Shown piece after piece: positions 1,880-2,022 of a DNA stretch of 33,655 nucleotides; the first letter of the stretch is position 1, and each line of letters starts with the position of its first letter. Source of the stretch: Comamonadaceae bacterium (GTDB lineage Bacteria > Pseudomonadota > Gammaproteobacteria > Burkholderiales > Burkholderiaceae_C). The position numbers and the translations under genes are program-made. The notes under the pieces are model-generated. The model was not told the origin of the DNA and did no database searches. It saw nothing but the letters and a program-made list of their open reading frames with translations. The stretch covers positions 65,447-99,101 of the forward strand of contig CANFWI010000006.1 in NCBI GenBank assembly GCA_947450675.1, given 5' to 3'.

Positions 1880-1911
1880 AAAAAAAAACCGCCGGGGGTC
1901 CGGCGGTTTTT
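1880..1911 (-). terminator. Attenuator: intrinsic terminator before the DAHP synthase gene
   Basis: On the minus strand a 7-bp GC stem (CCGCCGG paired with CCGGCGG, + coordinates 1900-1906 and 1889-1895) closes a 4-nt loop. It can be lengthened by A-T pairs and is followed by about 9 T residues (1880-1888). It lies between the leader peptide stop and the DAHP synthase Shine-Dalgarno, so it must be read through for the gene to be expressed. Directly visible; the regulatory role is inferred from its position. Confidence 0.9.
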
Positions 1912-1961
1912 GAGATTCAGCTGCGTTTTTTAGACTTACGCAAGGATCTCTCTACCGCCGG
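1900..1961 (-). promoter_or_regulatory. Antiterminator pairing of the aromatic attenuator
   Basis: Within the leader peptide reading frame the minus strand reads CCGGCGG (+ coordinates 1955-1961). This is a perfect 7-nt complement of the CCGCCGG that forms the 5' arm of the terminator (1900-1906), so the two structures exclude each other. A ribosome stalled on the aromatic codons at 1978-1995 would leave CCGGCGG free and allow antitermination. A ribosome that reaches the stop at 1936 would cover it and let the terminator form. Confidence 0.82.
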
Positions 1962-2010
1962 AGGCGCTTGAGAACCAAAAGTAAGAAAAATAAAAAGCTG
2001 CTGAATGCAT
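1936..2010 (-). CDS. Aromatic-rich attenuation leader peptide (24 aa)
   Basis: A 24-codon frame runs from ATG at 2008-2010 to TAA at 1936-1938. Residues 6-13 read FYFSYFWF, seven aromatic residues out of eight, covering Phe (4), Tyr (2) and Trp (1). The Ser-Gly-Gly codons at 17-19 carry the antiterminator sequence. It precedes a terminator and then DAHP synthase, the committed enzyme for all three amino acids, which is the classical arrangement for transcription attenuation by translating ribosomes. There is no Shine-Dalgarno; instead a -10-like TACATT ends 6 nt before the ATG, so the transcript may begin at the start codon. The peptide itself probably has no further function. Confidence 0.88.
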   Translation of the reverse strand: MHSAAFYFSYFWFSSASGGREILA

Positions 2011-2016
2011 GGGTTC

Positions 2017-2022
2017 AATGTA
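2017..2022 (-). promoter_or_regulatory. Putative -10 box (TACATT) of the attenuator transcript
   Basis: TACATT, preceded by TGC (extended -10 form), ends exactly 6 nt before the leader peptide ATG. No good -35 is visible 16-18 nt upstream, where the sequence is a T-run. If used, transcription would begin at or next to the ATG. Support comes from the same spacing at four other starts in this window. Confidence 0.5.

Follow-up and report, generated by a model that had tools for sequence, protein, structure and literature searches.

We propose that a ribosome-mediated transcription attenuator upstream of the DAHP synthase gene in the window (the whole stretch of 33,655 nucleotides analyzed here) controls this enzyme of the cell, a reading that the sequence and its comparison with relatives favor and to which we assign a probability of roughly 0.86. 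These two sources establish the leader, its sensor codons, the alternative stems, their co-variation, the spacing of the parts, the position before DAHP synthase, and the lack of a Shine-Dalgarno sequence ahead of the leader. We suggest with more reserve, at somewhat less than even odds, that the element belongs to a large, undescribed family in Proteobacteria in which a leaderless leader mRNA acts as an OR gate for phenylalanine, tyrosine, and tryptophan, a dedicated promoter with an extended -10 fires at the AUG, letting the first ribosome load on the RNA while it emerges, and the leuA attenuator shares this promoter design, even before two types of LeuA. If so, one RNA would read up to three end products and a cell with one DAHP synthase would set aromatic flux at the entry enzyme, making testable both a mixed-codon leader that integrates several amino acids and attenuation on leaderless mRNA beyond trp.

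Leader, terminator, and antiterminator in the window

All elements lie on the minus strand, which the first-pass annotation of this DNA had omitted. The gene upstream of the leader, tldD (3583-2048), ends at 2048, and its stop codon is no more than about 30 nt away from the leader promoter (2017-2048). This promoter is predicted from an extended -10, TGTGCTACATT (2017-2027), located 6 nt before the ATG of a leader ORF of 24 codons (MHSAAFYFSYFWFSSASGGREILA plus TAA, 1936-2010) whose translation is predicted to begin on a leaderless mRNA. Codons 6-13 (1972-1995) are the sensor codons and read TTT TAT TTT TCT TAC TTT TGG TTC, or F Y F S Y F W F. The presumed regulated gene (716-1840) encodes a type I DAHP synthase of the AroG/F/H family, as the window protein matches TIGR00034 at 526.8 bits against a cut-off of 173.2 and also matches PF00793; AAGGAAG at 1847-1853, read from the sequence, is its probable Shine-Dalgarno. 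The draft genome from which the window comes, estimated to be 94% complete, holds one match to a type I DAHP synthase and none to a type II enzyme.

Between leader and gene, a terminator scan places an intrinsic terminator at 1880-1911, consisting of a 12-bp stem with an ACCC loop (AAAAACCGCCGG-ACCC-CCGGCGGTTTTT, hairpin at 1911-1884) and a T run (1888-1880). By itself this terminator is unremarkable, because shuffled sequences yield about as many sites (1.1 +/- 1.1, versus this one site in 901 bases). Its competitor is built from segment 2, TCCGGCGGT (1954-1962), which lies inside the leader frame and forms the antiterminator 5' arm, and segment 3, ACCGCCGGA (1899-1907), which forms the 3' arm with the same bases that serve as the terminator 5' arm. 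The resulting 9-bp pairing (1962-1954 with 1907-1899) encloses two inner stems found by folding (1912-1950), GAGAU (1950-1946) with AUCUC (1916-1912) and UUGCGU (1943-1938) with ACGCAG (1926-1921), and the 73-nt antiterminator piece folds at -27.7 kcal/mol (z = -4.05), a value that none of 200 shuffles equaled. The first-pass annotation was exact in describing a 24-codon leader with FYFSYFWF at residues 6-13 (ORF 2010-1936), and the terminator and T-run that it placed just before the DAHP synthase gene are present (1911-1880, the gene spanning 1840-716). Its perfect 7-nt antiterminator held as a competing stem in the leader frame but not in size, since the structure comprises 9 bp and two inner stems.

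A strong segment-1 hairpin, of the kind that forms the 1:2 pause or anti-antiterminator hairpin of trp, was not found; the local segment-1 hairpin is small (matched -5.81 versus mismatched -5.50 kcal/mol, p = 0.038). The window's minimum-energy fold contains a long-range pairing, UUCAGCAGC with GCAGCUGAA, which we set aside; by eye, it occurs in close relatives only. No Rfam family reached its gathering score in the window, the best weak match being Phe_leader (RF01859) at 23.5 bits against a gathering score of 55, and the same search of 20 loci (58,673 bases) gave 0 matches at gathering score.

Ribosome position and the amino acids sensed

In the mechanism that we envisage, RNA polymerase would start at the leader AUG or 1-2 nt from it, and a ribosome would load on the leaderless mRNA. 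When charged aromatic tRNA is scarce, the ribosome would wait at codons 6-13 with segment 2 free just past its leading edge, allowing segment 2 to pair with segment 3 before segment 4 is made; the two inner stems would assist this 2:3 pairing, and transcription would read through into DAHP synthase. When charged tRNAs are ample, the ribosome would cover segment 2, segments 3 and 4 would pair, and transcription would end.

We modeled the consequences of ribosome position with covered segment 2 excluded by construction. In the window, A-site codons 4-13, a range that takes in every aromatic codon of the leader (6-13), favor the antiterminator in the model (P 0.86-1.00), codon 14 and those after it favor the terminator (P at least 0.99), and an untranslated leader is predicted to adopt the antiterminator fold before segment 4 appears and the terminator fold afterwards. 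At equilibrium with the complete terminator stem, a ribosome stalled at the first aromatic codon leaves the antiterminator ahead in 8 of 60 loci, and one stalled at the last does so in 12 of 60. While segment 4 is still untranscribed, 2:3 pairing forms (P at least 0.5) in 55, 59, and 53 of the 60 loci when the stall is at the first, a middle, or the last aromatic codon, respectively, and in none of them once the modeled ribosome stands four codons later. The switch in most other loci is therefore best taken to be kinetic, because equilibrium favors the terminator even with segment 2 free; classical attenuators are likewise kinetic switches. As segment 3 still pairs upstream at P 0.60 when the segment-2 region is shuffled, versus 0.99 for the real sequence, and as the exclusion is built into the model, it is the comparative evidence that carries the weight.

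Phenylalanine and tyrosine are the conserved core of the sensor cluster: among the 169 leaders compared, both are present in 166, of which 127 contain tryptophan as well and 39 do not, and the other 3 have phenylalanine only. Tryptophan codons occur in 109 of 120 leaders in the window's lineage versus 18 of 49 elsewhere. The main signal is most likely phenylalanine, with tyrosine next and tryptophan lineage-dependent, and joint sensing of all three is plausible in cells whose single DAHP synthase supplies the three products. A serious competitor, which we rate a little short of an even chance, accepts the same attenuator and regards it as in effect a sensor of phenylalanine, or of phenylalanine plus tyrosine, with the single Trp codon and some Tyr codons as passengers. 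Phenylalanine does account for 746 of the 1184 cluster codons (301 are Tyr and 137 Trp), tryptophan is missing in 42 of the 169 leaders, and the Phe-Tyr-Phe leader of Corynebacterium glutamicum aroR is reported, in the portions of PMC11802643 cited here, to respond to phenylalanine and not to tyrosine. Passenger codons would nevertheless have to be reconciled with the retention of mixed codons across lineages in the counts above, and with the ribosome model for the window, in which phenylalanine, tyrosine, and tryptophan are each predicted to have at least one codon in the zone where a stall favors the antiterminator.

Conservation and selection on the RNA

The locus sample comprises 80 named records (Polaromonas, Acidovorax, Variovorax, Hydrogenophaga, Comamonas, Rhodoferax, MAGs, and others) and 30 loci from further relatives, the window's locus among them; the two collections share species, so that not all of the locus counts that follow are independent. 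An aromatic leader lies upstream of DAHP synthase in 105 of these 110 loci, counting the window. Alignment of relatives, proposed in the first-pass annotation as a check on the aromatic codons and on compensatory changes in the stems, thus gave a positive answer on both points, the co-variation being described below. The exceptions are one locus that begins at the gene (L046) and four Polynucleobacter loci (L074, L078, L079, and L081) that have neither leader nor element and are also empty under a second covariance model, an apparent loss or divergence of the element. Altogether the element is missing from 4 of the 6 loci titled Polynucleobacter, the two that carry it (L059 and L064) being MAG records.

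A first covariance model, built from 102 aligned sequences, gave 87 matches in 86 of 399 genomes of the order, and DAHP synthase adjoins all 70 of the matches that we read, one of which is the window. Nearly all of 69 further loci across the order, with DAHP synthases 58-85% identical, have an aromatic leader. The second model, which derives from 69 diverse sequences, detected the element in 105 of the 399 genomes of the order, in 7 of 369 genomes sampled from the class (4 of them outside the order), and in 27 of 249 sampled from the phylum (14 of them in another class), all of which are lower bounds because of stricter filters. DAHP synthase adjoins the match in 36 of 37 more loci read from this search, the sole exception (L244) being a weak partial match, and a filter detected both leader and terminator in 30 of the 37. 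As a control, we took 20 upstream regions of DAHP synthase paralogues from the same genus, 48-56% identical to the window's enzyme, one of these regions being only 167 nt long; none of the 20 had a leader (at least four aromatics in ten residues), the -10 motif, or such a terminator.

Several individual loci depart from the common pattern. In another class of the phylum, L217-L229 carry the element before DAHP synthase with a shorter, FWYF-type cluster. Three distant loci (L235, L241, and L245) still have a TGTTAGCAT box ahead of the ATG, a segment resembling GGCGG, and the beginning of the terminator before DAHP synthase; their leaders have few aromatic codons despite the retained RNA frame, possibly reflecting decay or an altered signal. 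In L015 the terminator breaks off as its first arm begins and runs straight into the DAHP synthase coding sequence, which may be an assembly error or a deletion, and the leader call in L174, with its GTG start, is doubtful.

Because the antiterminator segment of the leader is found in each of the three reading frames and co-variation links the competing segments, selection acts on the RNA and not on the peptide tail. Of 169 loci, 152 have GGCGG past the aromatic cluster, versus 10.8% of mononucleotide shuffles, and this motif falls in leader frames 0, 1, and 2 in 95, 7, and 50 loci, respectively. In 131 of the 152, its start lies 11-15 nt past that of the last aromatic codon, approximately where the leading edge of a ribosome waiting there would lie. 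The distance to the stop codon counts against the mechanism: the stop starts 15-22 nt past the GGCGG start in 106 of the 152 loci, so that a ribosome waiting at the stop may leave segment 2 uncovered. Peptide tails vary by lineage (SVPGGRE, KPLAEEG, RPLADREG, SPTAVKSG), and four Acidovorax leaders (L006, L008, L010, and L011) stop right after two Gly codons while the GAGAGG stem sequence persists.

The co-variation shows at the base beside the core in segments 2, 3, and 4: of 60 diverse loci, 28 have C,G,C there, 11 have T,A,T, and 1 has G,C,G, the remaining 20 not being fully Watson-Crick at this position. Segments from the same locus extend the outer pairing by 1.88 pairs versus 1.35 after swapping between loci (0 of 5000 permutations as high), and the inner arms pair at -6.70 versus -5.69 kcal/mol (p = 0.0002), or p = 0.0014 when swapped only within two similarity groups. 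In three fixed alignments, 61, 19, and 27 cells changed on both sides of a pair, each more than in all 500 shuffles, in tests inflated by the relatedness of the sequences; for the terminator over the 69 diverse sequences, 95.2% of cells are paired and 27 changed on both sides. In the first alignment, 73.6% of cells pair overall; the three inner helices align poorly, do not occur everywhere, and reach only 40, 59, and 73%, and 9 of 10 inner pairs counted show both-side changes. The structure behind these alignment counts was drawn up manually, using the alignment and the fold of the window, so the 61 cells and the 73.6% lean towards the antiterminator, and the swap tests were added as a check; RNAalifold applied to the alignment returned the terminator only and no antiterminator. 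A terminator finder limited to gapless stems missed many terminators, and the 169-locus counts use another finder.

These patterns bear on two further explanations, both of them very improbable. That the leader is a small protein acting in trans, with the hairpins secondary, has a precedent in the Sinorhizobium meliloti peptide peTrpL, reported to act in trans in the cited parts of PMC7298713, but here conservation at the protein level is limited to the aromatic cluster, and the frame, sequence, and length of the tail shift between lineages. Less credible still is that the hairpin is merely the terminator of tldD, which ends on the same strand at 2048, with the DAHP synthase promoter downstream of the hairpin and the leader fortuitous: a lone terminator-like site is indeed near chance, but conservation extends to the leader, to segment 2, and to the way in which these co-vary with the terminator, the extended -10 sits between tldD and the terminator, and only 43 nt separate hairpin and gene in the window.

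Start of the leader and comparison with known systems

In the window's lineage, 103 of 105 loci have TGnTAnAnT within the 20 nt preceding the leader ATG, at spacings of 6 (26 loci), 7 (55), 8 (21), and 9 nt (1), so that 102 of the 103 fall at 6-8 nt; the motif is absent from the 25,955 nt examined farther upstream in the same loci. No -35 is conserved across the loci, and a sigma-70 scanner that requires a -35 found no promoter in 1500-2400 of the window. Ahead of the leader, a Shine-Dalgarno 4-mer is present in 1 of 120 loci of the window's lineage and 6 of 49 others, versus 9% in shuffles; ahead of the first long ORF past the terminator, it is present in 106 of 169. Because the ATG follows the extended -10 by 6-9 nt, usually without a Shine-Dalgarno, the leader mRNA of the window's lineage is probably leaderless. 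A universal leaderless start was rejected, as three loci (L133, L136, and L172) have, by eye, TATAAA about 44 nt upstream. In another class, L217, L218, L219, and others carry a near-consensus promoter, GTGACA-N17-TATATG/C-N6-7-ATG, and these again look like leaderless starts.

The pattern TGTGnTACATT-N5-8-ATG offers a genome-wide search handle for such leaders. In the window's own genome (3.06 Mb) it occurs in two places, at the DAHP synthase leader and at a leuA leader, and in 38 genomes of the genus it has 53 matches, versus 4 for a reversed control pattern. All 53 were read and comprise 28 aromatic leaders, 24 leucine leaders, and 1 other; DAHP synthase motifs lie within 900 nt of all 28 aromatic leaders and LeuA motifs within 900 nt of 22 of the 24 leucine leaders, the other 2 having motifs of neither enzyme. 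The second leader of the own genome, MNFISLALLLSSFGRRR (G000:C41:13632-13766, L251/L141), also looks leaderless and precedes a gene for 2-isopropylmalate synthase (leuA), with a GGGCGG segment, a terminator, and a TGTGnTACATT-N7-ATG promoter; it had appeared as a weak own-genome covariance match (L141, E 0.59) before leuA rather than DAHP synthase. Four LeuA proteins compared with NCBIfam are all 2-isopropylmalate synthases, of two different types.

In the trp attenuator of Escherichia coli, pairing of segments 2:3 competes with 3:4 and the sensor codons lie just upstream of segment 2. The window's element shares this arrangement and differs from it in having no clear 1:2 hairpin, a probably leaderless mRNA, and a long, nested 2:3 antiterminator. 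The pheL-pheA attenuator (RF01859) combines a Phe-rich leader with a terminator/antiterminator switch, as does the element described here, in keeping with the weak Rfam resemblance (23.5 bits versus 55); the target gene, the mixed aromatic codons, and the leader without a Shine-Dalgarno are different.

The nearest tested system in design, by its reported architecture, is the aroR-aroF attenuator of C. glutamicum, reportedly described by Neshat in 2014. According to the parts of PMC11802643 and PMC4046766 cited here, a DAHP synthase gene is controlled there by leader attenuation through the Phe-Tyr-Phe leader, whose response to phenylalanine was noted above. Compared by reported architecture only, both systems place an aromatic leader before DAHP synthase for ribosome-mediated attenuation, whereas that of C. 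glutamicum belongs to another phylum and has a short FYF and the window has seven F/Y/W codons in eight. For the leaderless start, the precedent is S. meliloti trpL, whose leader mRNA starts with the leader AUG in the cited portions of PMC10117765 and PMC7298713. Such a start is predicted here from sequence, and the trpL-type combination of a -10 at 6-8 nt before the AUG with no Shine-Dalgarno recurs (102 of 105 loci for the spacing, 1 of 120 with a Shine-Dalgarno); in those sources, a Trp leader and trpE as target contrast with an aromatic leader and DAHP synthase here.

A comparative candidate resembles the element in placing a leader ORF with Phe codons and a terminator before a DAHP synthase gene: the Acholeplasma uORFC-13-1 motif, a candidate Phe uORF and terminator upstream of aroF with 24 representatives in the cited part of PMC8632094. 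As described there, it is confined to the genus Acholeplasma and has an RBS, unlike the window's lineage, and is a candidate from comparison. Attenuation of E. coli aroF has been suggested, and Shewanella aroF and aroH are candidates, in the cited part of PMC2659441. Apart from these Shewanella candidates, we found no such proteobacterial DAHP synthase leader described in the open-access literature, which is not proof of absence, and a survey of premature terminators (PMC2965389) mentions neither aroG nor DAHP in its main text.

The attenuator design of the first-pass annotation therefore stands, with three additions that it did not mention: the probable leaderless start, the nested antiterminator, and the Corynebacterium precedent. 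As the cited portions of these sources describe them, leader attenuation of DAHP synthase is known from Corynebacterium and a leaderless leader mRNA from Sinorhizobium trpL, and what is probably new here is an extended -10 at 6-9 nt before the leader ATG, with an mRNA that is probably leaderless, in the window's lineage.
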